From positions 1 to 22,007 of IMG/VR virus record IMGVR_UViG_3300045738_000612: a stretch of 22,007 nt of DNA, one strand, 5' to 3'. A program made the translations under genes and the position numbers. This document shows positions 4,223 to 22,007 of this stretch, in pieces (position 1 is the first letter of the stretch; each line of letters begins with the position of its first letter). The DNA comes from a virus. The notes under the pieces were generated by a model, which worked only from the letters and a program-made list of their open reading frames with translations, did not search any database and had not been told where the DNA came from.

Positions 4223-7199
4223 TCCTTCTGGCGCTCTGATCCCCGATGCCGATGCGGCTCCCGATCCTGGGATGTTCGACGGCCTGATCAACGTCCCCAT
4301 CGTTGACAGTGATGCTATGGGTGTTGATGAACAGCCGATGGTGTCGGAGGAGGGCATCCAGGTTGCCGGTCCTATGGGCAAGCTGGGGGCCGACATAGGC
4401 TCCGGCGTTGCGCGTGTTTTCGGGAAAACGCTGGCCGAGGCCAGGAAAAAATCACTCGATCCGGAGTTCAAGGCCAAGAAAGCAGAACGGGAACCGAGCA
4501 TGTTCGATATGCCCGGAGAGCCGGAGGCCCCCCCAGCAAAGCCAGAGGCTCCGGATCCGGAGACTACGGGGCCGGTGATCAAGGAACTTAGTGAGGACGC
4601 CGGGTTGCCTCCGGCAGCGCCTGGAACGCCGGATCGGTTCAAGACGGCTGATCCTTATGAGAATTATATCCGAATAGGTGAGGAGGACGTTGCCGCTGCT
4701 TTGGAGCCGCCCCCCTTCAAGAAGGGCCAGGGGCTGTCCGACTTCAATGCCAAGAACCTCCCTGATGAGGCCAGCATCCAGGCGCGGATCGAACTGAACA
4801 GCCAACGGTTCGCCGGTAAGATTGACGAAGCGAAACGTGAGAAAATTACGTTTGAGGCCACTCAGCAACTGAGTAACCTGATTGGCATGTCGCCCAAGAA
4901 GTTGGCAGCGGCGATCCTCAAGCGACAGACAGGCCAGGGGATCCATGTCGAGGGCAAGGGCATGGCTGAAACCATGCTTGCCGCCAGGGATCTCCTGGTG
5001 TTGGAGATGCGGAAGCTGGACGGGCTGGCCGAGATTGCAAAGACCGGCAGCGATGAGCAAGCTATGGCGTTCCGATATCAGTTGGAACTTGTTGCCAATC
5101 TGCAAAAAAACATCAAAGGCGCGCAAACCGAGATAGCCAGATCCCTCGGGGCCATGCGGATTCCGGCGACGGGCGCGCCCAGAGATCCCGCCCTGGCAGC
5201 CGAGTTCGCAGCCAGGAGCAAGCGGGACCTAACGATGATGCTGGGCGATTACGGCGGTGCCGACAACGTCAGGACGATGGCTGATCTTTATAGCCGCACC
5301 GGAGCGCCGCATAAGAAAAGTGCCTTTATCAAAGGCATGGGCAAAGCGCGCCTTGTGGGAGATGCGATCTATGAGGTCTGGCAGCATGCCCTGTTGACCA
5401 ATATTGTTTCGCAGACAAAAAACATTCTCGGCAACATTCTAACTATGTTCATCTCCGACGTCGAGACGGCTGGCGCGGCTGCTATTGGAACTGCGCGCCG
5501 CGCAATGGGTGGTGAGGGCGGCACTACGTTTGGTGATCTCAACGCCAAGATTTTCGGGCAGACCATGTCATTCATGTCAGCCCTCAAATACGCCGGTCAG
5601 TCATTTGCCACGGGCAAGAGCATCATTCCCGGCACCAAGATCGACAGCGCCCAGGGGGCTGGCCGGAAGCATATGAATGCAGCCAGTGGTGAGGCATTTG
5701 GCGCAACCGGCGCACTGGCAACGGGGATTGATGTTATCGGTACTATCGCCACCGGAGGGCGGGTGGCCTTCCGCGCCCTAGAATTTGGCGATACTTTTTT
5801 CAAAGTGCTGGCGGCTCAAGGCAAGACCTGGGAGGAGGCAATGTCTGCCGGTCAGGCCAGGGGCCTCAAGGGAGAGGCGCTGTCGGATTTCATTGCCGAC
5901 TTTGTCAACGACCCTCCAGTGTATGTTATGGAGCGGTCAGCTGCCGAGGCAAGATATGTAACCTTGCAGACGGAACTTGACGCTGTTGGCAAGGGGTTCA
6001 AGGTACTCCAGAACATCCCCGGTATGCGCTGGCTGGTGCCGTTTCTAAAAACGCCTTACAACAGTTTCAAGTGGTCATTTATCGACAGGACGCCCCTCGG
6101 CCTGTTCTGGGGGGATACGGCCAGAAAGATCCGCGCCGGGGGCCGGGAAGCTGAAGAGGCAATAGCCAGGGTTTCCGTTGGAACCAGTATGGCGACAGTT
6201 GCAACAATGCTGACCTACAGCGGCGTGATCACCGGAGGCGGTCCCGTCAGCAGGGGAGAGCGCGCTACGGATCGACGCTTGGGGATCCAGAATTACAGCT
6301 GGAGAATTGGCGATCAATATTATAGCTATGCGGGAACGGAGCCTTTCGCCTCAGTAATCGGCATTTGGGCCGATGTAGGGCAAATCATGGCGTCAGGCCA
6401 TTTAAAGACGGAGGAGGAGCGCGGTGAGTTGTTTGCCGCCGCCCTGGCCGGGACCGCTCACAACATGACCAACAAGTCATTCATGCAGGGGTTTGCGACA
6501 TTCATCGAGGCTACCAGTGATCCGAATCGCTATTCAAAGAGCATGATGAAAAACCTGATCCGTTCCGTTGTGCCGAGGCTGGCCTCTCAGATTGAGCGGA
6601 TCAATGATCCAACGATCCGGGAAGCGCGGTCATATGTTGATGAAATCATAGCCCAGATCCCTGGGCTGTCATCTATTCTAAAGCCTCGCGTTGACCTGTG
6701 GGGCCGGGACGCCAAGATAGGCATCCCGACGCCGGGAGGGGGAACCAATCTCGCTTTTGGACCTGACATCGTCTCCCCGATTTTTGTGTCCCGGTATAAG
6801 CCCAATCCTGTTGACCTGGAACTCAAAAGGATGAAGGTCAAGCTATCTCCCCCGACAGACGCCCTGTTATATCCGGGGATGGAGGAGCCAATGAGATTGA
6901 CGGATGATCAGCGTTATTGGTATCAACAGACAGCTGGCAAGTTGTCATTTAAAAGGCTCTCCGCTTTCGTCGGAAGTGATGATTACAAGCAACTGAAAAA
7001 GCAATCAGAAAAGGGAAATATTTTTGTCACCGAATTGCTAACCAACAAAATCAGGGGCATCCACACCCTTACAAAGAAAGAGGCGGAAGGGCTGCTTATT
7101 AATGATAGTGAGTTTTCTGAAAGCTTAATGGAACGGATAACATCAATTCTTGAACTTGAAGCGGAAGTGAAAGCGCAACAGACGGGACAAATCCAATGA
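4212..7199 (+). CDS. large internal virion / ejection protein, T7 gp16-like position
   Basis: The protein has 995 residues. Residues 1-150 are acidic and Pro-rich (probably disordered). Residues 150-340 are charged helices. From about 370 to 520 there are Gly/Ala-rich, weakly hydrophobic segments. Residues about 600-630 carry IPGMRWLVPF, LKTPYN and DRTPLGLF, which resemble the aromatic, proline-containing core of the large polyvalent (LPD38-like) domains of phage ejection proteins. A hydrophobic segment follows at about 655-677. No lysozyme or lytic transglycosylase motif was found. The gene is the last of the ejection set, and its stop overlaps the fibre start as ATGA. In T7 the corresponding gp16 spans the cell envelope during ejection; the same role here is inferred. 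Confidence 0.65.
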   Translation: MAVDPSGALIPDADAAPDPGMFDGLINVPIVDSDAMGVDEQPMVSEEGIQVAGPMGKLGADIGSGVARVFGKTLAEARKKSLDPEFKAKKAEREPSMFDMPGEPEAPPAKPEAPDPETTGPVIKELSEDAGLPPAAPGTPDRFKTADPYENYIRIGEEDVAAALEPPPFKKGQGLSDFNAKNLPDEASIQARIELNSQRFAGKIDEAKREKITFEATQQLSNLIGMSPKKLAAAILKRQTGQGIHVEGKGMAETMLAARDLLVLEMRKLDGLAEIAKTGSDEQAMAFRYQLELVANLQKNIKGAQTEIARSLGAMRIPATGAPRDPALAAEFAARSKRDLTMMLGDYGGADNVRTMADLYSRTGAPHKKSAFIKGMGKARLVGDAIYEVWQHALLTNIVSQTKNILGNILTMFISDVETAGAAAIGTARRAMGGEGGTTFGDLNAKIFGQTMSFMSALKYAGQSFATGKSIIPGTKIDSAQGAGRKHMNAASGEAFGATGALATGIDVIGTIATGGRVAFRALEFGDTFFKVLAAQGKTWEEAMSAGQARGLKGEALSDFIADFVNDPPVYVMERSAAEARYVTLQTELDAVGKGFKVLQNIPGMRWLVPFLKTPYNSFKWSFIDRTPLGLFWGDTARKIRAGGREAEEAIARVSVGTSMATVATMLTYSGVITGGGPVSRGERATDRRLGIQNYSWRIGDQYYSYAGTEPFASVIGIWADVGQIMASGHLKTEEERGELFAAALAGTAHNMTNKSFMQGFATFIEATSDPNRYSKSMMKNLIRSVVPRLASQIERINDPTIREARSYVDEIIAQIPGLSSILKPRVDLWGRDAKIGIPTPGGGTNLAFGPDIVSPIFVSRYKPNPVDLELKRMKVKLSPPTDALLYPGMEEPMRLTDDQRYWYQQTAGKLSFKRLSAFVGSDDYKQLKKQSEKGNIFVTELLTNKIRGIHTLTKKEAEGLLINDSEFSESLMERITSILELEAEVKAQQTGQIQ

Positions 7200-11887: not shown

Positions 11888-12055
11888 ATGCGTAAGAAAA
11901 TTAGCTCCATTAATTCCAAGCTGACAACGCATGAGGCCGTGTGCGCTGAACGGTATTTGTCAATCTGCGCGAGGCTGAAGCGTCTGGAAACGATTGTGAT
12001 GTCTACAGCCGGGATGATTATCTTGTTACTTCTTGGCATGGTTTATCGGGGTTAA
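11888..12055 (+). CDS. small membrane protein, possibly XhlA-like
   Basis: This 55-residue ORF starts at ATG after a GGGGTGAT ribosome site and ends three bases before the next gene. The N-terminal 37 residues are charged and helical (HEAVCAERYLSICARLKRLE) and the C-terminus is one membrane helix (about 38-53: MSTAGMIILLLLGMVY). A short coiled helix followed by a C-terminal membrane anchor recalls the XhlA/haemolysin family, which acts with phage holins, but the sequence is too short for certainty. It opens the lysis region. Confidence 0.55.
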   Translation: MRKKISSINSKLTTHEAVCAERYLSICARLKRLETIVMSTAGMIILLLLGMVYRG

Positions 12056-12057
12056 CT

Positions 12058-12396
12058 GTGGAGCTAGGTGCTAGAGAGATTCTAACTTTCGCTACCGTCC
12101 TCGTCGGTCTCGCCAGTGGCTGGGCCATGATTAAAACTCAATTGGCACATGCCCAGAAAACGATAACGAAATTATCTAGACTACTTCAGAACATCGAATC
12201 AAGGATGGACTCTGTTGAGTCAGATAAAAATGTAGCGCAGAGTCAACTGGGAACCATCACCTCAATCCTGGCACCCGATAAGCTGAAGAAAATGTCTGAG
12301 CGTGACGGCGCAATTGAAGAGAGGCTGAAGTCCCTGGAGCGTGAGGTGGCGGCCCAAAGACGAATGCACAATGATACGCATCCAAAGGTCGAGTGA
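12058..12396 (+). CDS. membrane-anchored coiled-coil protein; candidate i-spanin or DUF2730-like
   Basis: The protein has 112 residues and starts at GTG with GGGG six bases upstream. One membrane helix (about 8-26) is followed by a long coiled coil (about 28-105, with TKLSRLLQNIESRMDSVES and REVAAQRRMH). This architecture fits two families: inner-membrane spanins (Rz-like), or the DUF2730 proteins of Mu-like phages. Positive charges just after the helix (K27, K35) argue somewhat for a cytoplasmic C-terminus and hence against a spanin. The next gene, overlapping by one base, encodes a lipoprotein, as expected for a spanin pair. Function undecided. Confidence 0.55.
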   Translation: MELGAREILTFATVLVGLASGWAMIKTQLAHAQKTITKLSRLLQNIESRMDSVESDKNVAQSQLGTITSILAPDKLKKMSERDGAIEERLKSLEREVAAQRRMHNDTHPKVE

Positions 12397-12722
12397 TGAA
12401 ACCTCTCATTATTTTTTGTCTATTATTCTTGGCGGCGTGTTCGACCCTAGATAAGTCTGAGATAATTAATACCTCTGCCATTCGCGTTAGTTCGGCCCAA
12501 TGTGGTCCGACGCCATCCGCAAAGGTGGAACTTGAGCGGTTAGGTGAGAAGCTGAGAGCGTCAGCACTTATGCAAGTGACTCCAACCGAGACGGTCATAG
12601 TCTCCTTTTACAGCGAGCAATCTGGAGACAGGGACTGGACAGTACTGATAGACAGCAGGAGCGGTAAAAGTTGCATGATACTTTGGGGCAAACACTGGCT
12701 CATGGCAGGACAAGAGAGTTAG
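12396..12722 (+). CDS. phage lipoprotein; candidate o-spanin
   Basis: The protein has 108 residues from the ATG that overlaps the previous stop as TGATG. (A GTG one codon upstream would add one residue.) The signal peptide KPLIIFCLLFLAAC has a clear lipobox L12-A13-A14-C15, so Cys15 should be lipidated after signal peptidase II cleavage. The mature part contains a helix (VELERLGEKLRASAL) and a strand-rich end with two cysteines (ending KSCMILWGKHW). It is not Pro-rich as lambda Rz1 is. Outer-membrane location and a link with the coiled-coil protein before it are inferred from gene pairing. Confidence 0.6.
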   Translation: MKPLIIFCLLFLAACSTLDKSEIINTSAIRVSSAQCGPTPSAKVELERLGEKLRASALMQVTPTETVIVSFYSEQSGDRDWTVLIDSRSGKSCMILWGKHWLMAGQES

Positions 12723-12730
12723 AGAACAGT

Positions 12731-12943
12731 ATGTTTATGTTAGTATTGATACCGTTGGTTTTTGGCGGTGCGTTTTATGCCGGTAATGAGGACTTTTTTG
12801 ACACCGCCTCAAGGCAAATTAATGATGGATATAATTGGCACTACATTGGTTACAAGAAGGCCGACACAAGGGTGCCATCGTTGCCACTGCAAGTTGATGG
12901 GTACGAACCTTATGTTTTGTGGAAGTTAAAAAAGGTGAGGTAG
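12731..12943 (+). CDS. small secreted or membrane protein of unknown function
   Basis: The protein has 70 residues from ATG 12731. A longer in-frame version from 12671 exists but would overlap the lipoprotein gene and add a non-hydrophobic tail before the membrane helix, so the internal ATG is preferred. Residues 1-17 (MFMLVLIPLVFGGAFYA) form a signal peptide or anchor. The rest is polar with many Tyr and Asp residues (NWHYIGYKKAD). I do not recognise a family. Confidence 0.5.
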   Translation: MFMLVLIPLVFGGAFYAGNEDFFDTASRQINDGYNWHYIGYKKADTRVPSLPLQVDGYEPYVLWKLKKVR

Positions 12944-13168
12944 TTGAAAATAATCTTAATCGGGCTGGTTGTCTTGATGGTTTCCGGGTGCGGTCTGCCG
13001 ATGCCGCTGTCGTACTTTAGTTATGGATGGACGGCCTACGATACGCATCAGATCATTCATGGAGATGAAACGGCAACGGACACTGTACTAAGTAAGGCGA
13101 CGGGTATGGACTGCCACATTGTTAATGCGCTGGAAGATAAAGAAGTGTGTGCCAGCAAGGCAGAATGA
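12944..13168 (+). CDS. small lipoprotein
   Basis: The protein has 74 residues and starts at TTG directly after the previous stop, with AAAGGTGAGG as ribosome site. The signal peptide ends in a lipobox V13-S14-G15-C16. The mature part has the pattern HGDETATDTVLSKATGMDC followed by EVC near the C-terminus; a DH/DT..S...G.DC......VC arrangement is found in small lipoproteins of marine and other proteobacteria and their phages, of unknown role. It is the second lipoprotein in the lysis region. Confidence 0.6.
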   Translation: MKIILIGLVVLMVSGCGLPMPLSYFSYGWTAYDTHQIIHGDETATDTVLSKATGMDCHIVNALEDKEVCASKAE

Positions 13169-13169
13169 A

Positions 13170-13235
13170 ATGAAAGCAACCACTCTGATACTGGCCGTTA
13201 CGGCGATAACTTGTGTAATAATTTTAAGTAGGTGA
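13170..13235 (+). CDS. possible 21-residue membrane peptide
   Basis: An ATG overlapping the space right after the preceding stop opens a 21-codon ORF (KATTLILAVTAITCVIILSR) that is almost all one membrane helix and ends three bases before the holin start. The position fits the close packing here, but a ribosome site is weak and the ORF is short, so it may be chance. Confidence 0.3.
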   Translation: MKATTLILAVTAITCVIILSR

Positions 13236-13238
13236 ACT

Positions 13239-13688
13239 ATGTTATCATTACTCGGTAGCCTTTTAGGATTCGGCACCTCCTTCCTTCCGAAAGTGATGGA
13301 TTTCTTTCAGGACAAGCAAGATAAGAAACATGAACTTGCTGTCATGGAGGTTCAGATCCGGCAACAGAAGGAACTGGCCGACCAAAAGCTGGAGGCGATT
13401 AATGTTGATGCAGATATTAGAGAAATTGAAGCACTTCAAAAGAGTATGCAACCCACTGGTGTTGGCTGGGTTGATGCTTATCGTGCCAGCGTGCGACCGA
13501 CCATTACCTACTGCTTCTTCGCCGTTTTTTGTTTCGTCGAAATCTCCGCATACCTCTCACTTACCGCTATGGGGATATCAGGACTCGATGCCGCCAGACT
13601 CACCTTCGATGAAAATACCCAGGCACTTTTCAGTTGTGTCATCGCATTCTGGTTCGGGGGTCGGGCCATTTCCCGTCTCAGTAAATAA
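13239..13688 (+). CDS. holin, three-helix gene-transfer-agent type
   Basis: The protein has 149 residues. A hydrophobic N-terminus (1-23) is followed by a charged coiled coil (about 26-70). Then come W77, R86-P87 and a membrane helix at about 88-110, and a last helix at 129-141 running into FWFGGRAI (137-144). The W...RP...FWFG.RAI pattern is that of the 'holin of 3TMs, for gene-transfer release' family. Its role would be to open the inner membrane for the endolysin encoded 23 bases downstream. The ribosome site is GTAGGTGA before ATG. Confidence 0.75.
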   Translation: MLSLLGSLLGFGTSFLPKVMDFFQDKQDKKHELAVMEVQIRQQKELADQKLEAINVDADIREIEALQKSMQPTGVGWVDAYRASVRPTITYCFFAVFCFVEISAYLSLTAMGISGLDAARLTFDENTQALFSCVIAFWFGGRAISRLSK

Positions 13689-13710
13689 TCCCTGTATCTG
13701 CTGCAAGCTA

Positions 13711-14193
13711 ATGCAAATCAATGCAGGTGGGCTATCAATCATCCTTGTTGCCGAAGGCTTCGTTGCGACGCCGTATCGATGCCCAGCAGGGGTCATTTCG
13801 CAGGGCTTCGGATCGACCGTTCTTCTTGACGGTACGAGAGTTAAGATGGATAGCCCTCCGATCACCAAGGATGAGGGCAAGGCTCTACTGCGGCGGCACC
13901 TGGATCATGTCGAGACAGGCATACTCAGGTTTGTTCGGGTGCCACTCAACGAGAACGAGTTCTCGGCTCTGTGTTCATTCGTCTACAATCTCGGGATCGG
14001 ACGGCTCCAATCATCTACGTTGAGGGCGAAGCTTAATCGAGGCGAGCGGCTAGGCGCGGCCAACGAATTTCCTAAATGGCGACGGGCGGGGGGTAGGGTG
14101 CTTCGAGGTTTGGTTATTCGGAGAGAGGCTGAACGTCAGCTATTTCTAACCCCAATTAGCTATGGTTCATCGTTCAAAAATGCATCGTTTTAA
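13711..14193 (+). CDS. endolysin, GH24 lysozyme (muramidase)
   Basis: The protein has 160 residues, the usual size for T4/P22-type lysozymes. The start MQINAGGLSII corresponds to the common family start, and no signal anchor precedes it; a longer in-frame ORF from 13330 overlaps the holin and is not real. The active-site region is E15-G-F...Y22-x-C24-P-A-G-V-I-S30-Q-G-F-G, that is E-8-C-5-S. The usual triad is E-8-D/C-5-T; the Thr is Ser here. The later FSALCSFVYNLG and W-x2-AGG-x4-GL-x2-RR-x2-E motifs are also typical. It cleaves peptidoglycan glycan strands. With no signal peptide, export depends on the holin. No good ribosome site is visible, so coupling to the holin gene is likely. Confidence 0.88.
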   Translation: MQINAGGLSIILVAEGFVATPYRCPAGVISQGFGSTVLLDGTRVKMDSPPITKDEGKALLRRHLDHVETGILRFVRVPLNENEFSALCSFVYNLGIGRLQSSTLRAKLNRGERLGAANEFPKWRRAGGRVLRGLVIRREAERQLFLTPISYGSSFKNASF

Positions 14194-14344
14194 GGAGTGG
14201 TGGCATTTGTGCTTTTCCATGATACAAACACTAGCACTCATCGTCATGTTTACCACTCTCCTTGCTGGTTACTGGATATTTTTTGAGCTTCCTATTCAGA
14301 TTTATAATCTCATTTTAGGTGCCACCTTTCGCCGTTTCCGTTAA
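14162..14344 (+). CDS. small membrane protein after the endolysin
   Basis: The ORF encodes up to 60 residues and overlaps the endolysin by 32 bases. It has one or two membrane segments (SMIQTLALIVMFTTLLAGYW, then FFELPIQIYNLIL). The only good ribosome site (AAGGAG, 14192-14197) lies inside the ORF, nine bases before an in-frame TTG at 14207, so the true product may be a 45-residue protein. TTG starts are used elsewhere in this genome. It could be an antiholin or a lysis accessory; nothing in the sequence decides this. Confidence 0.45.
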   Translation: MVHRSKMHRFKEWWHLCFSMIQTLALIVMFTTLLAGYWIFFELPIQIYNLILGATFRRFR

Positions 14345-14460
14345 TGTTGGGCCAGGAACCTCCGACTGAGATCACGCTGGCTTGGTGTTGAGTTGGGGTT
14401 TGACAGCATCTCACAGGCCTCACGTTTCAGCTTGAGGATCAGTTCTGCCGGGGGCCTCAT
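14341..14460 (-). CDS. 39-residue ORF at the end of the recombination operon
   Basis: The ORF reads MRPPAELILKLKREACEML and ends SRRFLAQH. Its ATG overlaps the upstream stop as ATGA, so it could be translated by coupling. Its stop shares the TTAA bases 14341-14344 with the stop of the convergent + strand gene. The peptide is basic and helical. No family is recognised. Confidence 0.45.
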   Translation of the reverse strand: MRPPAELILKLKREACEMLSNPNSTPSQRDLSRRFLAQH

Positions 14461-14849
14461 GCTGTCACCAGATCCCCAAGCCGGTTGAACGCCTCGCTTA
14501 CTTGTTCAGCCTGTTCATCATTAACGCTGTCACCGTACATCGCGACTTGATCACGCCAATTCTTTTGGCGATCCAGGAACTCGATAGCCGCACTTTTGAT
14601 TTCGCGCAGCTGCTTGAGTTCCTCATTGGGATCCGGAACCAGGGCGATTGATCTCGCTTTAAACTTTTGCCGGATGATATGTCCTCGATCCTCCAGGCCG
14701 CGCAACAGCCTGACGGCTCCTGATCTGGCGCGCAGTCCGAGCGCCTCGATGATCTCATCATTCGTCGGTGGGATCCCATTCTCCCCCAAATACTTTTTGA
14801 TGAAACTCAAGCACTCGGTCTGCCGTTTTGTCATGCCCAACTTGGTCAT
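14457..14849 (-). CDS. LexA-like winged-helix protein without protease domain
   Basis: The protein has 130 residues. Residues 1-70 match the LexA N-terminal DNA-binding domain closely: MTKRQ-x-ECLSFI, ENGIPPTNDEI, ALGLRARSGAVRLL, LEDRGHI. The C-terminal part (75-130) is a charged helix and contains no Ser/Lys autoprotease (no A-G cleavage site, no S24 core), so it cannot be inactivated by RecA-stimulated self-cleavage as LexA is. The ATG overlaps the RecT stop as ATGA, with GAGGGGAGAG as ribosome site. It may regulate a phage operon or compete for host SOS boxes; both are inferences. Confidence 0.75.
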   Translation of the reverse strand: MTKLGMTKRQTECLSFIKKYLGENGIPPTNDEIIEALGLRARSGAVRLLRGLEDRGHIIRQKFKARSIALVPDPNEELKQLREIKSAAIEFLDRQKNWRDQVAMYGDSVNDEQAEQVSEAFNRLGDLVTA

Positions 14850-15793
14850 GCTCTCCCCTCCTCATCCTTGGCCTTGGCCGAGAGGGTCTTGATCAGCTTC
14901 TTGTACCGATCCTTGATGTCTGCCCCCAGCGCCTCGCGCTCCTGGCAAAGACGCTCGATAGTGTCATCGTTGGCCTTCTTGATGACGGATGCATTGTGGC
15001 GGCGGTCATTGAGATTGATATCCTCATCATTTGCTGCGCGCCCTATGGCCGCGATGAACTCTTCGTACCACATATCGGCGTCCTGGCACTCAATAACCTC
15101 ATCATCAAGTATGAGTTCCCAGACCCTGCTCTCAGGGGCCTGAGAGGGCGCTGGAGGGGTTTCAGCTTCCTCTGATACCTTGGGTATCTGAGCCTCCTCA
15201 ACTTGGACAGGCGGCGCTTCCAGGGCCTCGGTTTTCTCAAGGGCCTCACCAAAAGCTGCATCCAGTGGATTTTCAGGTGAGGTCTGCTCAGATGACCCTT
15301 TATCCTCATCTATCCCGACACCTTTTATCGCATCAGGAAAACTATCTCTAATTGCAAACCCCCGCGCTCTCATCTGGAGCATCCGATTTGGATATTGTTG
15401 CCACGGCCCCGCTTTGTTGAGCAGACCGGCGCGCTTGGCTTCACCGACAGAGAACGTGCGTTCCGTCTCGACCTTCTCCGCATTGACCAGTCGAGTGATC
15501 CGGCAGTGTGCCGTCTCGCCGTCCAGCCATTCCTGATGACCACCGTATTGAGGATGCGCCGTGACCAGCGCGAGAGCAGCGTCTCCGTATATGGTTGGCT
15601 TGCCGTTGATGACTGCAATATTCTGGAGCGCCGACATGATCGGCAGTCCAACTTCGCTGCCCCACTGCACCGCAACCAGGATATCCTCCGGCTTGCCCTG
15701 GAATTGTTTTGGTACCATGCTCGACGCCGCCAGCATCTTTGAAAACTTGATGGCTTCATTCATGGTCTTTGGAACTAGCATTTTTCCGGTCAT
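14846..15793 (-). CDS. recT: RecT-family single-strand annealing protein
   Basis: The protein has 315 residues from the ATG that overlaps the exonuclease stop as TAATG, with AAGGAG eight bases upstream. A longer in-frame ORF reaching to 15895 lacks a ribosome site and overlaps the exonuclease gene. The N-terminal 170 residues carry the RecT pattern: MNEAIKFSKMLAAS, ILVAVQWGSEVGLP, MSALQNIAVINGKPTIYGD, and NRMLQMRARGFAIRD. The C-terminal 145 residues are acidic and Pro/Glu-rich, then helical. RecT proteins bind single-stranded DNA and anneal complementary strands, and they work with a partner exonuclease, encoded directly upstream here. The acidic tail may mediate partner contacts. Confidence 0.85.
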   Translation of the reverse strand: MTGKMLVPKTMNEAIKFSKMLAASSMVPKQFQGKPEDILVAVQWGSEVGLPIMSALQNIAVINGKPTIYGDAALALVTAHPQYGGHQEWLDGETAHCRITRLVNAEKVETERTFSVGEAKRAGLLNKAGPWQQYPNRMLQMRARGFAIRDSFPDAIKGVGIDEDKGSSEQTSPENPLDAAFGEALEKTEALEAPPVQVEEAQIPKVSEEAETPPAPSQAPESRVWELILDDEVIECQDADMWYEEFIAAIGRAANDEDINLNDRRHNASVIKKANDDTIERLCQEREALGADIKDRYKKLIKTLSAKAKDEEGRA

Positions 15794-16737
15794 TACTTTT
15801 TCTCCTTCACGGTTATGGTTGACTGACGTTTGCTGGACGCCTCCTTGGCCGGGACAATTTTCTCCGGCTGCGCCTTGGAGTGCCTCATCGGCCATTTGAA
15901 CTCATAGCCCTCGACGTTGCCGGTGACATGGTTGCCGAGTTGCTCCTGGACTTTGGCGTTGATGATCTTGATGGCGTCCTCGCCTTCTTTGATCGACGCC
16001 CTGAGCGCCAGAAATTCCTCAGCCAGTTTGGCAAACGCCGGGTCCAGATCCTTGGGAACCTCATCATCCCCCTCGCCGTATATTAAGAGTGCATCTGCAC
16101 TGTTCTCAATGTCATACCAGCGCACCGGATCACTCCGCAGCCGCTTGTCAAAATCGAGGACGGCGGCAGAAATGGCGGCAACAGTTGGCGCATGAGGAAC
16201 AAACACAAAACATCTGAGAGCGATCCCCTGGTACAGGATCCCCAGTACACCCCAGGAAAAGTTCCCGCACATCATTTGCCCCTGCAATTGCAACGGCCCC
16301 CGGCCCATGTCAGGAGCATCCTCGGGCCGGTAGGATGTAACCTTGCTTTCAATGCAGCCTGGGCCGTCGAGGGAGATCTGTTCGGCTCCCATGCAATAGA
16401 TCCCATTCTCCGGATCCGTCCTGATGATCTGCCCCTGGCCTACGGCCTCGCAGTCGAGGCTTGTCTCCAGTTCCAGGGTGCCGTGTTTGATGGCGTAGTC
16501 GATGTCTTTGTTGTAGTCGCGGATATTTAAACGCCTCGCAGTCTCATCAATGACCACCGGCTCAAGTCTATCACCCCAGCCTGTTGCCTCATTCCCATCC
16601 CAGGAATCAGCGGTCCCGTCGATATGGGACTTGACCAAGGCGAGGGTTTCGTTTGGCGTTGACCATTGTGAATGTCCCATGATCCCTGGGAGCAGAGATG
16701 CAGATGCCTTACAGTTGTCGGTAACTTTACCAACCAT
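15793..16737 (-). CDS. YqaJ / lambda-exonuclease-type recombination nuclease
   Basis: The protein has 314 residues. It shows the features of the YqaJ branch of PD-(D/E)XK nucleases: SLLPGIMGHSQWSTPNE near 14-30, NEATGWGDRLEP (E59), SLDCEA (D95), IESK (E130-S-K132) and the following Gln-rich helix GPLQLQGQMM. These are the metal-binding D, E and K of the fold and the associated Q motif. It should resect double-stranded ends 5' to 3' and load the RecT partner, as in lambda Red or RecET. The C-terminal helix region contains a possible coiled coil (ALRASIKEGEDAIKIINAK). AGGAG lies seven bases before ATG. Confidence 0.82.
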   Translation of the reverse strand: MVGKVTDNCKASASLLPGIMGHSQWSTPNETLALVKSHIDGTADSWDGNEATGWGDRLEPVVIDETARRLNIRDYNKDIDYAIKHGTLELETSLDCEAVGQGQIIRTDPENGIYCMGAEQISLDGPGCIESKVTSYRPEDAPDMGRGPLQLQGQMMCGNFSWGVLGILYQGIALRCFVFVPHAPTVAAISAAVLDFDKRLRSDPVRWYDIENSADALLIYGEGDDEVPKDLDPAFAKLAEEFLALRASIKEGEDAIKIINAKVQEQLGNHVTGNVEGYEFKWPMRHSKAQPEKIVPAKEASSKRQSTITVKEKK

Positions 16738-16756
16738 TTAAAAGTCTCCTAGATTT

Positions 16757-16915
16757 TTACTTGTTGAAGATGACCGCCGTAACGGCGACTAACGCTGTCA
16801 AGGCCACGACCTTTACCGCGACCAGGGCCGTCCAGATCCACTTGGGCGGTTTCCAGTGTGCTGGCTCTCGCTCTGATTTAATGAGTTCATCCAGCGCCTT
16901 GTCAAAATTTGTCAT
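16757..16915 (-). CDS. 52-residue single-pass membrane protein
   Basis: The ORF starts at ATG behind a very strong ribosome site (AAAGGAGGT, five bases upstream) and begins three bases after the recombinase stop. The N-terminal 28 residues are charged (TNFDKALDELIKSE, then WKPPKWIW) and residues 28-50 form one Ala/Val-rich membrane helix. No family is recognised. A membrane protein inside a recombination operon is unusual; lambda-like phages sometimes encode host-nuclease inhibitors or exclusion proteins in such places. Confidence 0.6.
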   Translation of the reverse strand: MTNFDKALDELIKSEREPAHWKPPKWIWTALVAVKVVALTALVAVTAVIFNK

Positions 16916-16918
16916 GCT

Positions 16919-17578
16919 TTACCTCCTTTCAACTCTCTCGATGATCAACTTGACCTGTTGCGGGTGCCAAACAGGGCGTCCTGAGGGCGTCGAGATCTTG
17001 CGCTCAGTCAGTTCTTGGGCGATCCCCCGCAGTGAAGTCACTCCGAATTTCTTGATCCGCTCGATGACGGGATAGACGTTCTCAGCAATCTCGTTTGCCT
17101 TGAGGGTGCGCGCTGCTCGACCAGCTGCTGCGACTGCCCTGATGTTCTTGCTCCCCAGTTTTTTACCCTTGGCCTTGAGAGCGGCCAGGGCGGCTTTGGT
17201 GCGCTCGGAGATCTTGACTCTCTCCAGTTCCGCGACAGCTGCAATGATATGGACGTTGAAACGGTCAGCCACCGGCATGTCGGCAATGGTGATCTCAACC
17301 TCACTCTCCAGGAGGACGGCGATCTGCGCGACAGATCTGCCCAGCCGGTCAACCTTGGCAACCAGGAGCGCCGCCTTTTCTTTCCGGCATAGTTCCAGAG
17401 CAGCCATCAACTCGGGCCGGTCATCCTTGCTCCCACTCTCAACCTCGGAGAACTCAGCCAGGATCTCCGCGCCTCGCGCAGCCGCCAGATCCTCGACGGC
17501 TTTGCGCTGCGCTTCCATACCCAAGCCAGCGATCCCCTGCTTATCAGTGGAAACTCTGAGATAAGTGACGTATTTCAT
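16919..17578 (-). CDS. small serine recombinase (resolvase/invertase superfamily)
   Basis: The protein has 219 residues. The catalytic domain (1-145) has YVTYLRVSTDKQ with R8 and the nucleophile S10, KVDRLGRS (77-82) and the E helix with ELERVKISERT. The C-terminal part (about 155-219) has the short DNA-binding segment common in proteobacterial members: VTSLRGIAQELTERKISTPSG followed by W. It is too short for a large serine integrase and has no zinc ribbon. It may resolve, invert or integrate DNA; no matching sites were found. The ATG overlaps the upstream stop as ATGA, so it is co-translated with the recombination operon. Confidence 0.85.
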   Translation of the reverse strand: MKYVTYLRVSTDKQGIAGLGMEAQRKAVEDLAAARGAEILAEFSEVESGSKDDRPELMAALELCRKEKAALLVAKVDRLGRSVAQIAVLLESEVEITIADMPVADRFNVHIIAAVAELERVKISERTKAALAALKAKGKKLGSKNIRAVAAAGRAARTLKANEIAENVYPVIERIKKFGVTSLRGIAQELTERKISTPSGRPVWHPQQVKLIIERVERR

Positions 17579-18189
17579 CCGTCCATCTCCTCACTCATGG
17601 TTTCCGCGATTTCCTCAGCCTCTCTGGCCCTATCCAGGACCGCTTCAACCCTGGCATACTCGGCAGCGTATGCCTTGCTGTTTGACCGTCCTTCATATTT
17701 CGCCAGGATCTCGCAAACCAGATCCCAGCCCCGGCCTCGGGGAAGTTCTCCGCTCCGCATTGACCGCGCAATGCTGTCACAGAACCGGCCCTTGCCGTCC
17801 TCAATCTCATCAGCCAGGGGCTTGAGCAACTCAACAATCGGTTCCTTGAGGATCCGTCCGGCCTCAGCCTCGGCGGCATTCTCAGCGTCCCGCTTGGCGT
17901 TCTCATCCGCGCAACGCTCGGCCCTGGCGGCGTTCTCTTTCTCCCGCTTGGCCGCTGCTTTCTCCCGCCGCTTGACCAGGGCCTTGTATTCCTTCTCAGT
18001 GTAGGCCCTTACCGTCTCCTTGCCGGTGCCGCCGCAGCCAAAGCAAGTGTCCCCATACGCTGCACACCAGGAGAACTTGCCGGTGCCGCCGCATCGAGAG
18101 CAAGTGCCGCTTGTGATGGCCTTGCCCTTGCTGTTGAAAGCCAGCCCTCGGGCCGCTTCTCCGGTGCTTGTGAAATGCTTTTCTTTCAT
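17575..18189 (-). CDS. DnaJ-type zinc-finger and coiled-coil protein
   Basis: The protein has 204 residues from ATG 18189, with GGAG nine bases upstream; a GTG two codons earlier is too close to that site. Two CxxCGGTG motifs (C30/C33 and C49/C52, plus C42) form a DnaJ-like zinc finger. They are followed by a highly charged coiled coil (about 65-115, rich in Lys, Arg, Glu and Ala) and a helical C-terminus. No J domain is present. It is the first gene after promoter P1 and so leads the recombination operon. It may be a nucleic-acid-binding or chaperone-like accessory protein; the role is unknown. Confidence 0.65.
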   Translation of the reverse strand: MKEKHFTSTGEAARGLAFNSKGKAITSGTCSRCGGTGKFSWCAAYGDTCFGCGGTGKETVRAYTEKEYKALVKRREKAAAKREKENAARAERCADENAKRDAENAAEAEAGRILKEPIVELLKPLADEIEDGKGRFCDSIARSMRSGELPRGRGWDLVCEILAKYEGRSNSKAYAAEYARVEAVLDRAREAEEIAETMSEEMDG

Positions 18190-18230
18190 GCTCACTATCT
18201 CCTTATGCTTAATTTAGGTATTGCTCTCCC
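18184..18230 (-). repeat. leader element, copy 1
   Basis: The block from GGGAGAGCAA to ATGAAA upstream of the zinc-finger gene resembles the block at 20235-20281. Placed end to end without gaps, 31 of 47 positions agree, and the central TAATTAAG/TAAATTAAG match improves if small gaps are allowed. ATAGTGAGCATGAAA is identical in both. Confidence 0.75.
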
Positions 18231-18239
18231 TGGTGTCAA
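18211..18239 (-). promoter_or_regulatory. promoter P1 of the recombination operon
   Basis: On the minus strand, a perfect -35 box TTGACA (18234-18239) and a -10 box TAAATT (18211-18216, 4 of 6) are exactly 17 bases apart. The first gene starts 22 bases beyond the -10 box. The 12 bases AGAACTTGACAC are identical to those of promoter P2. Confidence 0.65.
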
Positions 18240-18305
18240 GTTCTTTGGGGTGATTTTCTGAACTTTTTTTCCTCAACCAGGAACTCCCTCAATTCAGTCT
18301 CCTAT

Positions 18306-18358
18306 CTAGTCTCATCAGTGGGCTTGAACCCAGACGCCCAGTAGGGCGTTTCGACTAG
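18306..18358 (-). ncRNA. type II hammerhead ribozyme
   Basis: Read on the minus strand, all core elements are present in order. Stem II 5' strand CTAGTC; GAAA; stem III CGCCC with loop TACT and GGGCG; cleavage triplet GUC (G of stem III, then UC at 18334-18333); stem I TGGG with loop TTCAAG and CCCA; CUGAUGA (18318-18312); stem II 3' strand GACTAG, which pairs perfectly with CTAGTC. A15.1-U16.1 and G10.1-C11.1 pairs are kept. The open end is at stem II, hence type II. Self-cleavage is expected between 18333 and 18332. The TAG stop of the preceding gene lies in stem II. Hammerheads of this type are known from bacterial and phage sequences; activity here is inferred from the complete core. Confidence 0.92.
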
Positions 18359-18558
18359 CGGGTGATTGACTTAAGGAACTCATCATCCAAGCCGGGGTGG
18401 TTCCGTAGCCAGCGCCTTAAGGCTCCTTTCGTTGAGTCAATCTGCTTTTGGACGGGACGCCTCTTAAAGGTGGCGTCAAAGGGAAGGTCTAACAGCATCT
18501 CAAGCTTTTTCTTGAGGCGCTGGACCCGCTTGGCGGCGTAGTCTCTGTCATGTGCCAT
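18355..18558 (-). CDS. small basic protein, last gene of the early operon
   Basis: The protein has 67 residues from ATG 18558, with GGAGGAGAAAAGAG upstream; an in-frame extension to 18609 would lie deep inside the previous gene. It overlaps the previous gene by 11 bases. The sequence is basic and helical (AAKRVQRLKKKLEML, then QKQIDSTKGALRRWLRNHPG) and could bind nucleic acid. Its TAG stop lies within stem II of the hammerhead ribozyme. No family is recognised. Confidence 0.65.
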   Translation of the reverse strand: MAHDRDYAAKRVQRLKKKLEMLLDLPFDATFKRRPVQKQIDSTKGALRRWLRNHPGLDDEFLKSITR

Positions 18559-18739
18559 CTCTTTTCTCCTCCATTTCATCCAGCAGTTTATCAAAAGCCT
18601 CGATCTCATCCTCAGAAGCGGCCTTCAGATCAACAGGCAGCGTGATGATGAAGTTCTCCATCTCCGGAGTCAGTTTCACCGGGCTATGCAAGGCGATCAT
18701 ATGAAGATCGAGGCGGGTAACAGGATCGATCCGTTTCAT
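18548..18739 (-). CDS. small protein of unknown function
   Basis: The protein has 63 residues from ATG 18739, just after AAGGAGG. An upstream in-frame TTG would place the ribosome site inside the coding region and is rejected. The N-terminus is neutral (MKRIDPVTRLDLHMIALHSP) and the C-terminus acidic and helical (DEIEAFDKLLDEMEEK). Not recognised. Confidence 0.6.
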   Translation of the reverse strand: MKRIDPVTRLDLHMIALHSPVKLTPEMENFIITLPVDLKAASEDEIEAFDKLLDEMEEKRDGT

Positions 18740-18756
18740 GGTTCCTCCTTTTTTAT

Positions 18757-19125
18757 TCAACGTCTCGCAAACCCAACATCAAAACCGTAGTACGGCTCCA
18801 GATACCAGCCCTTGCCGTTCAGGATCCCGACAACGTCCGGATCTCCCTTGCCGTCATAGGCCCCTACATAGCGCGTTTCCCACTCAGGGAATGAGAACAC
18901 TGAGGATCCGGACATGCCGACACCCCACTCATAGGGGCCAGCCTCCCACATAACGCGCCACTCCTTCCCGAAACCGTTGGCTACGCCCTCCTCCGGCGTC
19001 ATCAGGCGGCACTCGATGTCAGGATCCATGCCAGTTGCTTCCGCTTTCTCGCAAACCAGGGTGTAAAGCGCCTTGGCTGCGCCAGCTGCGGATTTATATT
19101 TCGACAGATCTAAAGGTTTGGTCAT
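18757..19125 (-). CDS. small conserved early protein of unknown function
   Basis: The protein has 122 residues, and its start overlaps the upstream stop as ATGA. It has many aromatic residues and a distinctive end (EAGPYEWGVGMSGSS, WYLEPYYGFDVGF). This pattern recalls small hypothetical proteins of alphaproteobacterial phages and prophages, but no function is known to me. No membrane segment or metal-binding motif is visible. Confidence 0.6.
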   Translation of the reverse strand: MTKPLDLSKYKSAAGAAKALYTLVCEKAEATGMDPDIECRLMTPEEGVANGFGKEWRVMWEAGPYEWGVGMSGSSVFSFPEWETRYVGAYDGKGDPDVVGILNGKGWYLEPYYGFDVGFARR

Positions 19126-19340
19126 GCTTCCGGTCCTTCCATAAATTCCCGGCCCATTGGTGTCCGGACATAAATGACATATTCTCCGTTCTCTTCACAA
19201 CGATCCAAAGAACAAGGACGCCCCTCGGCAAACTCAGCGATGCTCACTTTTTTGCCAAGGTATTCAGCGCCGGTCGCAGTATGCGGAACGATGGTGATCT
19301 CGTCTGAAAAGAACATGATTGGCGTCAGTGATTTTCCCAT
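19122..19340 (-). CDS. small early protein of unknown function
   Basis: The protein has 72 residues from ATG 19340, which overlaps the previous stop as TGATG and has GAGGAGG seven bases upstream. An in-frame extension to 19361 is unlikely. It appears beta-rich (IMFFSDEITIVPHTATG, EYVIYVRTPMG). Not recognised. Confidence 0.6.
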   Translation of the reverse strand: MGKSLTPIMFFSDEITIVPHTATGAEYLGKKVSIAEFAEGRPCSLDRCEENGEYVIYVRTPMGREFMEGPEA

Positions 19341-19543
19341 CAGAGTTCCTCCTCTTTGCAAGCCTCGTAGGCCTCGGGATGGATTGGGTGAGGCTCAAGA
19401 CCCTTCTCCTCCCGTTTGGCGTTTCCCGCCGTCATGCAGTCCAGGCAGAACGCCTCATTGTTCAAGCTCGGCACCTTCTTAGGATTGAAAGTGAACAGCT
19501 TGCCGCAAGCACCGCAGCTGCCGGTGCAAAATGCGTATCCCAT
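19340..19543 (-). CDS. small zinc-ribbon-like protein
   Basis: The protein has 67 residues from ATG 19543 (TGATG overlap, GGGAG eight bases upstream); an in-frame ATG at 19558 would add five residues. Two CxxC pairs (C10/C13 and C33/C36) 19 residues apart form a likely zinc ribbon, and the acidic C-terminus is disordered. Such small zinc proteins in early operons often bind host or phage proteins or nucleic acid. Specific role unknown. Confidence 0.6.
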   Translation of the reverse strand: MGYAFCTGSCGACGKLFTFNPKKVPSLNNEAFCLDCMTAGNAKREEKGLEPHPIHPEAYEACKEEEL

Positions 19544-19848
19544 CAAACGAACTCCCATTTTCCAGTGGTTTTGTTCCGGTATTTGATTCCGGTGCAGCCG
19601 TAGCTCGGCGTCCCGTAATCATCGAGAGGCCCGAAACAATCCTCTCCATTATCTCCATCCTCGATGAACCTTCCTGTCAGGTTGAGGGTGCCGTCATCAT
19701 CATAAAGTTTGAATGCTTCCCCTCCTCCTTTCTCCAAGATCCCGATCCAGGCATCGACCTTGGCGCTGTCCGGATTGTTCCCCGGCCCAGTGATAAAGAT
19801 CTCCTCGTTATTGAGGCAGTCTTTAGTGATTATCCAGGCATATCCCAT
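19543..19848 (-). CDS. small conserved phage/prophage protein of unknown function
   Basis: The protein has 101 residues. The layout YAWIITKDCL, then FKLYDDDG, GRFIEDGDNGEDCFGPLDDYG and GCTGIKYRN-x-TTGKWE recalls a small protein found in many alphaproteobacterial genomes and phages, without known function. It starts by TGATG coupling to the 22-residue ORF and begins with MGYA, like the next gene's product, although the rest of the two proteins is unrelated. Confidence 0.65.
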   Translation of the reverse strand: MGYAWIITKDCLNNEEIFITGPGNNPDSAKVDAWIGILEKGGGEAFKLYDDDGTLNLTGRFIEDGDNGEDCFGPLDDYGTPSYGCTGIKYRNKTTGKWEFV

Positions 19849-19916
19849 CAGAACGCTCCTTTCAGCTTTTCCATAGTCTTGGCGTACTCAGCCCAGGGTT
19901 TCCCTTTGTCAGTCAT
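19848..19916 (-). CDS. 22-residue coupled microprotein
   Basis: The ORF reads MTDKGKPWAEYAKTMEKLK then GAF and stop. Its ATG overlaps the end of the upstream gene, and its stop overlaps the next ATG as TGATG. GAGGAGG lies upstream of the ATG. The tight coupling on both sides argues that it is translated. It may serve as a translational relay or be a true microprotein. Confidence 0.45.
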   Translation of the reverse strand: MTDKGKPWAEYAKTMEKLKGAF

Positions 19917-20085
19917 AGTATCCCTCCTCTCTCAAGGCCTCATTCGCGGCACCCTTTGGCGTGTATCCGTCTTCGAACATATCAAGGTAGGACATGTCCA
20001 TGAGATCCAGGCTCGATAATCCGCAAGCTTTGTCGATGGCCTCATCAACCTTCCGCATCCAACCCTCGAAATTTCTCTTTGCCAT
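19909..20085 (-). CDS. small acidic early protein
   Basis: The protein has 58 residues, started by TAATG coupling with AAAGGAGG upstream. It contains GWMRKVDEAIDKACGLSSLDLMDM, then YLDMFEDGYTPKGAANEAL. A W...V...........DL.D..Y.D.FEDG..P..AA.EAL layout is common in small unknown proteins of phages and proteobacteria. Function unknown. Confidence 0.6.
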   Translation of the reverse strand: MAKRNFEGWMRKVDEAIDKACGLSSLDLMDMSYLDMFEDGYTPKGAANEALREEGYYD

Positions 20086-20240
20086 TAAATGCCTCCTTTG
20101 ATGACAGTTATGAACAACATGAATGTCGCCAGGATTGACGCGCTTTTCAGGGCAATCATTTCCAGGCTGATCCGTCCCAACCCTTCAAAGCTGGTTGCTT
20201 GGGCGCTGGAAAAATTCTCACTAACCAAAAAAGGTTTCAT
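20085..20240 (-). CDS. first gene of the early operon, 51-residue membrane protein
   Basis: The ORF starts at ATG 20240 at the end of the shared leader, with AAGGAAGGGA upstream. Residues 1-25 are polar (MKPFLVSENFSSAQATS) and residues 26-47 form one membrane helix (ISLEMIALKSASILATFMLF, then ITVI). Being first after a strong promoter, it is probably the most highly expressed early product. Small early membrane proteins can act in superinfection exclusion or envelope takeover, but nothing specific is visible. Confidence 0.6.
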   Translation of the reverse strand: MKPFLVSENFSSAQATSFEGLGRISLEMIALKSASILATFMLFITVIKGGI

Positions 20241-20281
20241 GCTCACTATTCCCTTCCTTAATTATCCTGTTTTGCTCTCCT
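20235..20281 (-). repeat. leader element, copy 2
   Basis: The block from AGGAGAGCAA to ATGAAA upstream of the first early gene is the counterpart of 18184-18230. Here it lies downstream of the promoter, whereas in copy 1 its first bases form the spacer between the -35 and -10 boxes. Confidence 0.75.
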
Positions 20282-20309
20282 TGAACTAAATATAGGCACA
20301 TGGTAAAAG
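20281..20309 (+). promoter_or_regulatory. possible promoter for the ribbon-helix-helix gene
   Basis: On the plus strand, TTGAAC (20281-20286) and TAAAAG (20304-20309) are 17 bases apart, each matching the sigma70 consensus at four of six positions. It overlaps promoter P2 on the other strand almost completely, so the two would compete. Confidence 0.4.
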
Positions 20310-20317
20310 AGTGTCAA
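20289..20317 (-). promoter_or_regulatory. promoter P2 of the early operon
   Basis: On the minus strand, a perfect TTGACA (20312-20317) and TATATT (20289-20294, 5 of 6) are 17 bases apart, about 50 bases before the first early start codon. It is the strongest promoter match in the window. Confidence 0.75.
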
Positions 20318-20348
20318 GTTCTAAACGCAAAAAAGTGAGATTATTTCA

Positions 20349-20537
20349 ATGAAACTCCCCAAAACCCCTATGAGCTTGAGTTTGGACCCGGAATTAAATG
20401 TCGAACTGAGGCGAATTTCCGACGCCACAGGCATTCCGATGACCCGTTTGATTGAGGATGCGCTGATTAATTACCTCCCCTCAATCCGCGAGGCTCACGC
20501 TGACCAGCTGGTCGCCCTCGCCAGGGCGGCGCACTAG
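20349..20537 (+). CDS. ribbon-helix-helix DNA-binding regulator
   Basis: The protein has 62 residues, typical for Arc/CopG/MetJ-type proteins. A beta strand MSLSLDPEL (8-16) is followed by two helices (NVELRRISDATG and MTRLIEDALINYL). Such proteins dimerise through the strand, which contacts the DNA major groove, and usually repress their own and adjacent promoters. It is transcribed away from the early operon, beside the overlapping promoters at 20281-20317, so control of the early promoters is a reasonable inference. A weak GTGAGA ribosome site precedes ATG. Confidence 0.75.
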   Translation: MKLPKTPMSLSLDPELNVELRRISDATGIPMTRLIEDALINYLPSIREAHADQLVALARAAH

Positions 20538-20855
20538 ATGAACCGGTCAAAATATCGAAATGTCCGGACAGAGGTAGACGGCATCAAGTTTGCCAGCCGC
20601 GCTGAGGCAAAGCGGTATCAGGAACTCAAAATCCTGGAGCGCGCCGGGGAGATAACGCGCCTTGACCTTCAGCCCCGCTTTGACTGTTGGGTTAACGGCA
20701 ACAAGGTTTGCACCTACGTCTCGGATTTTCGGTATTTCACTGATGCGGGTCAGATAATTGAGGATGTTAAGGGGATGAAAACGCCGGTCTATAAACTCAA
20801 GAAAAAACTGGTCGAGGCTTGTTACCCCGGCGTCAAAATTATAGAGATAAAATAA
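20538..20855 (+). CDS. DUF1064-family nuclease-like protein
   Basis: The protein has 105 residues and starts directly after the regulator's stop. It shows the DUF1064 pattern: SKYRN, DGIKFASRAEAKRYQEL (E23), LQPRF, then SDFRYF (D63), EDVKG (D76-V-K78) and KLKKKLVEA. The E...D...(D/E)xK set is that of a small PD-(D/E)XK nuclease, and family members occur in phage replication and recombination regions, possibly as junction- or end-processing nucleases. The exact substrate is unknown. The TAATG overlap couples it to the next ORF. Confidence 0.8.
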   Translation: MNRSKYRNVRTEVDGIKFASRAEAKRYQELKILERAGEITRLDLQPRFDCWVNGNKVCTYVSDFRYFTDAGQIIEDVKGMKTPVYKLKKKLVEACYPGVKIIEIK

Positions 20856-21034
20856 TGGATCAACTGAGAATGAGGATCAATGGTCTGCTCGACAACGTCC
20901 AACTGCTGACTGAGAAGAACGAGCGCATGCAGAAAGCCCTGGAGGAGATCCGGGACGTTGCCGGGGTTTCTGATGGCGTCGAGTTCTATGTCATGTTGGC
21001 CGAGCAGGGCCTGGGAGAGGGTGATGAAAGTTAG
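20855..21034 (+). CDS. 59-residue coiled-coil protein
   Basis: The start is the ATG overlapping the previous stop (TAATG); an in-frame extension into the DUF1064 gene is rejected. Residues 3-35 form a helix with heptad character (QLRMRINGLLDNVQLL, TEKNERMQKALEEI), and the tail is acidic. The function is unknown. Confidence 0.55.
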   Translation: MDQLRMRINGLLDNVQLLTEKNERMQKALEEIRDVAGVSDGVEFYVMLAEQGLGEGDES

Positions 21035-21188
21035 AACCCTTGACGGCAAGAAGATAATCGAAATCAACGCTGTTGACTCCAGGTTGAAGGAAGCTGTGGA
21101 TGCGGAGGCTAATGGCTACCCGCAGTTCGCCTTACAGAAGCTGGATGAAGCTATCCAAGCCGAGCGGAAGTTAGAAAATGCTGATTGA
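21024..21188 (+). CDS. 54-residue protein of unknown function
   Basis: The start is ATG 21024 behind GAGAGGGTG, overlapping the previous gene by 11 bases; an in-frame extension to 20958 reads as a shadow of that gene. It begins MKVRTLDGKKIIEINAVDS and continues with two helices (LKEAVDAEANG, ALQKLDEAIQAERKLENA). Not recognised. Confidence 0.5.
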   Translation: MKVRTLDGKKIIEINAVDSRLKEAVDAEANGYPQFALQKLDEAIQAERKLENAD

Positions 21189-21216
21189 AATATGGTATGA
21201 GAGTTGAAGAGGCATA

Positions 21217-22007
21217 GTGAAATTTCTCTCGTTATTTGCCGGTATCGGAGGATTCGACCTTGGTCTGGAACGCGCTGGTATGACATGCGTCGGCCAGGTG
21301 GAGAACGATCCGTATTGCATCAAGGTCTTGGAGAAGCACTGGCCGAATGTGCCACGGTGGACAGATATAAGGAATTTCAAGGAACCCGCCAATGCAGATG
21401 GAATTGACCTTATCTGCGGCGGGTTCCCGTGACCGTGCCAACCTTGGTCCGGTGCCGGGAAGCGCAGAGGCACAGAAGATGACCGCGATCTCTGGCCGGA
21501 GATGCTCCGCATTATTGAGATTGTCAGGCCAAGATGGGTCGTTGGCGAGAATGTCAGAGGCTTTGTTTCAATGGAAATGGGCCTCGAGCGCAGCATTTCT
21601 GACCTGGAAGCCATCTGCGGCTACGCCGTCCAGGCTTTTGTTGTTCCAGCTTGCGCCGTCGATGCCCCGCACCGAAGAGACAGATGCTGGGTTGTGGGCC
21701 ACCGCCAGCAGCAGGGATTGGAAGGATACACCGGGAATGGCAGCAACAGGAACCAACCCGGACGGAACGGAAAGAAAGCGCGAGGATCAGTTGGTGAGAC
21801 AAGTTTATGCGGGGATGTGGCCGACGCCGAAGGCGCAGGACAGCCACGGCGGAAGCGGACAAAACGTACAGGGCAGCCCATCTTTGACGGACAAGGTGAA
21901 GCTGTGGCCGACGGCCAGGTCCAAGCATTTATGCGGAGGGACGGGCAACTTCGAGCAACTGAACAAATTGAAGGATGCGGGACAGATAACGGAGCCGGAA
22001 CGCAAGG
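21217..22007 (+). pseudogene. C5-cytosine DNA methyltransferase, broken and running off the window
   Basis: Starts at GTG behind GAAGAGG. Motif I (LFAGIGGFDLGLERAG), motif II (ENDPYC), motif IV (GGFP-stop-PCQPWS), motif VI (VVGENVRGFV) and motif VIII (DAPHRRDR) are all present. An in-frame TGA (21430-21432) splits motif IV just before the catalytic Cys (PCQ), where CCGTGA-CCGTGC looks like a tandem 6-base duplication. After VIII, the typical C-terminal pattern (LWATASSRDWKDTPG, MWPTPKAQDS, KLWPTARSKH) is found in the +1 frame (from about 21692), so a second lesion or deletion lies near 21680-21695. The downstream frame is open to the window end. Such enzymes protect phage DNA from host restriction. 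This copy should be inactive unless the lesions are sequence errors or are read through. Confidence 0.8.

Follow-up and report, generated by a model that had tools for sequence, protein, structure and literature searches.

The window, a 22,007-nt stretch of a viral genome record (IMGVR_UViG_3300045738_000612), carries on its minus strand a type II hammerhead ribozyme whose stem II contains the stop codon of a small phage gene. It is probable (roughly 60%) that this element is a genuine type II hammerhead acting as a cutter of mRNA between cistrons, with its catalysis predicted from sequence and structure.

Structure of the predicted ribozyme

The minus-strand RNA, read 5' to 3' from 18358 down to 18306, was assigned to the following elements.

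18306..18358 (-), type II hammerhead ribozyme, recognised by core and stem layout, Rfam match, descriptor scan, comparison with phage contig L123, and folding
18358-18353 with 18311-18306 (-), stem II, 6 bp, open (CUAGUC with GACUAG)
18352-18349 (-), GAAA core strand
18348-18344 with 18339-18335 (-), stem III, 5 bp (CGCCC with GGGCG, loop UACU) plus the A15.1-U16.1 pair, U16.1 being 18334
18332..18333 (-), predicted cleavage site, after C17 (18333) of the GUC triplet
18332-18328 with 18323-18319 (-), stem I, 4 Watson-Crick bp (UGGG with CCCA, enclosing UUCAAG) and a possible fifth U-G pair
18318-18312 (-), CUGAUGA core strand

The core CUGANGA and GAAA strands were present with the A15.1-U16.1 pair, and the NUH cleavage triplet was GUC. 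Stems I and III were closed by loops and stem II was open, which is the type II layout; the strand between UC and CUGAUGA, comprising stem I and its loop, is UGGGUUCAAGCCCA. Cleavage is presumed to occur between 18333 and 18332, a position that we take from established hammerhead anatomy. The minimum-free-energy fold was exactly the hammerhead structure for the isolated ribozyme (-22.2 kcal/mol, z -3.7), and also when its flanks were included. The original prediction of a complete type II hammerhead at 18306-18358 on the minus strand was confirmed in its sequence, coordinates and core, with stems of 6, 5 and 4-5 bp.

A search of the window against Rfam detected RF02276 (Hammerhead_II) as the sole match at E <= 1, and no other self-cleaving RNA family appeared at this level. 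The score was 26 bits, with an E-value of 0.18 over all families and 4.4e-5 when RF02276 was searched as a single family; the corresponding ribozyme of L123 scored 24.1 bits, and both values were below the curated gathering cut-off of 37 bits. The covariance-model check proposed with the prediction accordingly located RF02276 at the predicted place, at a score under the threshold, which is formally the first of the two outcomes that together would have counted against the prediction. As the cut-off is a curation threshold and not a structural feature, we retain the assignment to the type II architecture, without formal membership in the Rfam family. In our assessment, the comparative evidence from the sequences described below outweighs the sub-threshold score.

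The low score would also agree with a structure formed by chance without ribozyme ancestry. However, a loose type II descriptor (every stem of at least 3 bp, any NUH triplet) gave no match in 40 Mb of simulated Markov sequence of the same dinucleotide make-up, and the exact strict structure was expected about 4e-11 times per 44 kb by a composition-based, after-the-fact estimate. The structure was moreover kept in L123 with changes restricted to tolerated positions, and it lies in the stop-codon register typical of phage hammerheads. We regard a chance origin as highly improbable.

A gene-ribozyme pair common to an unrelated phage

The following features surround the upstream side of the ribozyme and its 3' border.

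18355..18558 (-), 67-aa orphan gene directly upstream of the ribozyme, with relatives in L123 (91%) and L124 (73%) only
18355..18357 (-), UAG stop codon of this gene, within the 5' strand of stem II and ending 2 nt before GAAA
18296..18305 (-), ribosome-binding-site sequence AUAGGAGACU directly 3' of stem II, which precedes a full gene in L123
18296..18570 (-), block common to the window and L123, consisting of the gene and the ribozyme from ribosome-binding site to ribosome-binding site, 87.6% DNA identity

The 67-aa protein had no match in Pfam or PHROGs, and no relatives were found in genome contigs, nor in viral contigs beyond the two listed. The annotated phage collection gave nothing for the protein (tblastn) or for the right half of the window, 12001-22007 (megablast). 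In L124 the relative of the gene is present without the ribozyme, and the next gene there has its own promoter and ribosome-binding site. Consecutive small genes at 3930-4300 of L124 each carry a near-identical promoter and ribosome-binding-site unit (TTGACAGGCCGATCTCGCTGTGCTTTAAT ... AGATAGGAGACGTGAAATG, with small changes); such repeated units might serve for the exchange of gene cassettes.

The phage contig L123 has a length of 33.5 kb and a GC content of 41.6%, compared with 52.6% in the window; within the piece compared, its DNA matched the window over 18570-18296 only. The order in L123 was the gene, a hammerhead overlapping the UAG stop codon of the gene, AUAGGAGACU, and a further full gene. 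The two ribozymes differed at 8 of 53 positions, all located in loop III, loop I or the cleavage nucleotide, with the core and the remaining pairs identical. The cleavage nucleotide 17 was C in the window and A in L123, changing GUC to GUA in keeping with the NUH rule, and the possible fifth pair of stem I was U-G in the window and U-A in L123. All 8 differences fell among 11 positions at which hammerheads tolerate change (loop III, nucleotide 17 and loop I; P about 2e-7 if random), although these 11 positions were named after viewing the alignment, in line with the established consensus. The restriction of differences to the loops and the cleavage nucleotide indicates selection for a working ribozyme, as judged from the one homologous pair formed by the window and L123.

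The exact CTGATGANNNTAGATAGGAG arrangement was detected among viral contigs in the contig of L123 only, and genome contigs contained no hammerhead with a TAGTC/GACTA stem. Contig L272 has, at 593-666 (-) and soon after a stop codon, a further site resembling a type II hammerhead; its stem II is likewise CTAGTC/GACTAG, and its stem I seems to contain an internal loop.

Placement of type II hammerheads in phages

Two pattern scans of viral contigs, using different stem III sequences, yielded at least 194 distinct type II hammerheads in at least 159 flanking-DNA clusters. Among the matches listed, a reading frame of at least 40 codons terminated within -12 to +3 nt of GAAA in 128 of the 154 cluster representatives with enough upstream sequence (83%), compared with 6-7% of random same-strand positions. 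The stop codon exactly abutted stem II or overlapped it by one base in 67 of these representatives, and a start codon with a ribosome-binding site followed downstream in 160 of 194, at a median of 23 nt. The distance in the window, 2 nt before GAAA, was one of the two commonest offsets in the same set. Given the compactness of phage genomes, an intergenic position would be expected in any case; the tight abutment would not. The window ribozyme fits the layout of stop codon, ribozyme and start codon of phage type II hammerheads; it is a fresh example of a known ribozyme class in the location usual for phages. The stop-codon register was not reported in the titles and abstracts found in the open-licence literature. 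One phage contig, L154, carries nine type II hammerheads in about 4.2 kb (946-5156, -), most of which have a start codon shortly downstream.

Presence, absence and proposed transfer of the cassette

The region 3' of the ribozyme contains the following features.

18245..18563 (-), 319-bp stretch in place of which the sister phage L002 has 36 nt, the gene and the ribozyme both being absent in L002 and the flanks being 95-97% identical
18292-18236 (-), 18-codon TTG reading frame after AUAGGAGACU, probably a relic
18211..18239 (-), sigma-70-like promoter (TTGACA-17-TAAATT) belonging to the following gene block and conserved in L002
17575..18189 (-), next gene, encoding a small protein with CxxCxGxG-type zinc-finger repeats

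Over most of the flanking block, L002 and the window shared 95-99% identity, and L002 kept the promoter at 18239-18211 despite the loss or absence of the gene and the ribozyme. In L123, TAGATAGGAGACT bordered the pair at either end; it is a variant of the ribosome-binding-site sequence that recurs at the early genes of that phage. Recombination exchange at such repeats would be the simplest account, and AUAGGAGACU located 3' of the window ribozyme seems to mark the edge of an imported piece. We propose from these sequences that the gene and the ribozyme may travel between phages as one unit, with either phage as a possible donor. The boundary position in the window seems to stem from the landing of the cassette there, or from its loss in the sister phage.

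Proposed function and alternative explanations

Leftward transcription from an early promoter near 20317 would read through the small genes into the ribozyme. Departure of the ribosome from the UAG stop codon, which is part of stem II, would be followed by folding of the RNA and cleavage after C17. Because the cut would fall downstream of the stop codon and upstream of the ribosome-binding site, the 67-aa reading frame would stay whole and both frames would remain intact. Cleavage would leave the upstream mRNA with a 3' end formed by the stem III hairpin and a 2',3'-cyclic phosphate, and the downstream RNA with a 5'-OH followed by the stem I hairpin; both hairpin-capped ends would be expected to resist exonucleases. 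In the arrangement of L123, the downstream piece would carry the ribosome-binding site of the next gene and the cut would separate two genes. In the window, the next gene is reduced to the 18-codon frame and a sigma-70-like promoter belongs to the following block; transcripts would accordingly be trimmed or separated by cleavage, and the ribozyme would mainly set the 3' end of the early transcript before that promoter.

The original prediction had regarded the boundary between two operons as the telling feature of this placement. The ribozyme indeed comes after the last of the small early genes, and the next block, which starts with the zinc-finger-repeat gene followed by resolvase, RecE-like, RecT-like and LexA-like genes, does have its own promoter. 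The significance attached to the boundary was not supported: in L123 the pair has a gene on either side and is followed closely by the next ribosome-binding site, and phage type II hammerheads generally lie after a stop codon and before a ribosome-binding site. Since the sister phage has neither gene nor ribozyme and the L123 ribozyme is located between two genes, the operon-boundary placement is local.

From 18355 to the promoter at 18239, the minus strand showed no terminator-like site, and the downstream frame has just 18 codons; both agree with an active ribozyme serving solely as a 3'-end maker, or terminator substitute, for the small early operon, with gene separation irrelevant. The full gene and ribosome-binding site at about 23 nt downstream in L123 and in most of the at least 194 phage cases stand against this explanation, which we consider a minor possibility.

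Another alternative concerns activity. A pseudoknot between loop I and the 3' tail is stabilising and is usual, though not universal, in type II hammerheads. Its canonical form was sought in the window ribozyme and not found, and the only match between loop I and the tail was one of 4 nt at tail offset 9-13, which was not kept in L123. Activity at cellular magnesium could thus be low. Among the matches listed, a match of at least 4 nt was present in 71 of 194 phage forms, compared with 28 of 194 with shuffled tails, so the pseudoknot is not obligatory. The failure to find a canonical pseudoknot, the sub-threshold Rfam score, the lack of a full downstream gene and the absence of the cassette from the sister phage would all suit a relic carried along with the gene, intact in structure and slow or inactive in the window phage. 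A relic is, however, difficult to reconcile with a core and stems that remained unchanged while the loops diverged from L123, and we judge it improbable. The score, the pseudoknot search and a sister phage that manages without the ribozyme also weigh against the preferred reading of an mRNA cutter between cistrons. As a speculative and rather doubtful extension of that reading, the tight register might allow the terminating ribosome to cover the core, so that upstream translation would time the cut and gene and ribozyme would form a transferable expression module.

Relation to known hammerheads

The window ribozyme shares with Hammerhead_II (RF02276), as described by Perreault et al. (2011, PMC3088659), the open stem II, the CUGAUGA/GAAA core, the NUH triplet, and a phage location between small genes with the stop codon beside stem II. 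It differs in its stem I of just 4-5 bp instead of the usual 6-8, in that no canonical loop I-tail pseudoknot was found, and in its 26 bits against the 37-bit cut-off; its 6-bp stem II compares with 2-5 bp in all but one of the 194 phage forms among the matches listed. Clustered prophage hammerheads in a similar setting are described in the same report as cleaving in vitro and in E. coli, and were proposed there to divide the long transcripts of phages into mRNAs of gene length (PMC3088659). As in the clusters given there for A. tumefaciens ardA, C. scindens and A. caulinodans, the ribozyme in the window flanks one small gene; unlike those clusters, the window has one ribozyme with a different gene family, and the pair occurs in an unrelated phage but not in a sister phage. 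The role of hammerheads in bacteria and phages is described in a review as an open question (PMC6155905). The present case links a single ribozyme with a single mobile gene, with signs of selection in two phages, and the layout of stop codon, ribozyme and ribosome-binding site, together with at least 194 others, leads to testable predictions on transcript ends and translation.

Several other features of the window were observed. In a C5 cytosine DNA methylase frame at 21217-22007 (+), a single in-frame TGA interrupts the catalytic motif (GGFP-TGA-PCQPWS), with a 6-base near-duplication (CCGTGA CCGTGC); the frame is otherwise open to the window end, and the TGA may reflect a pseudogene, a sequencing or assembly error, or read-through. 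The protein encoded at 14457-14849 (-), at the end of the RecE/RecT block, has a LexA-type DNA-binding domain without a visible peptidase domain. The phage also encodes a relative of the internal virion proteins found in T7-like marine podoviruses.
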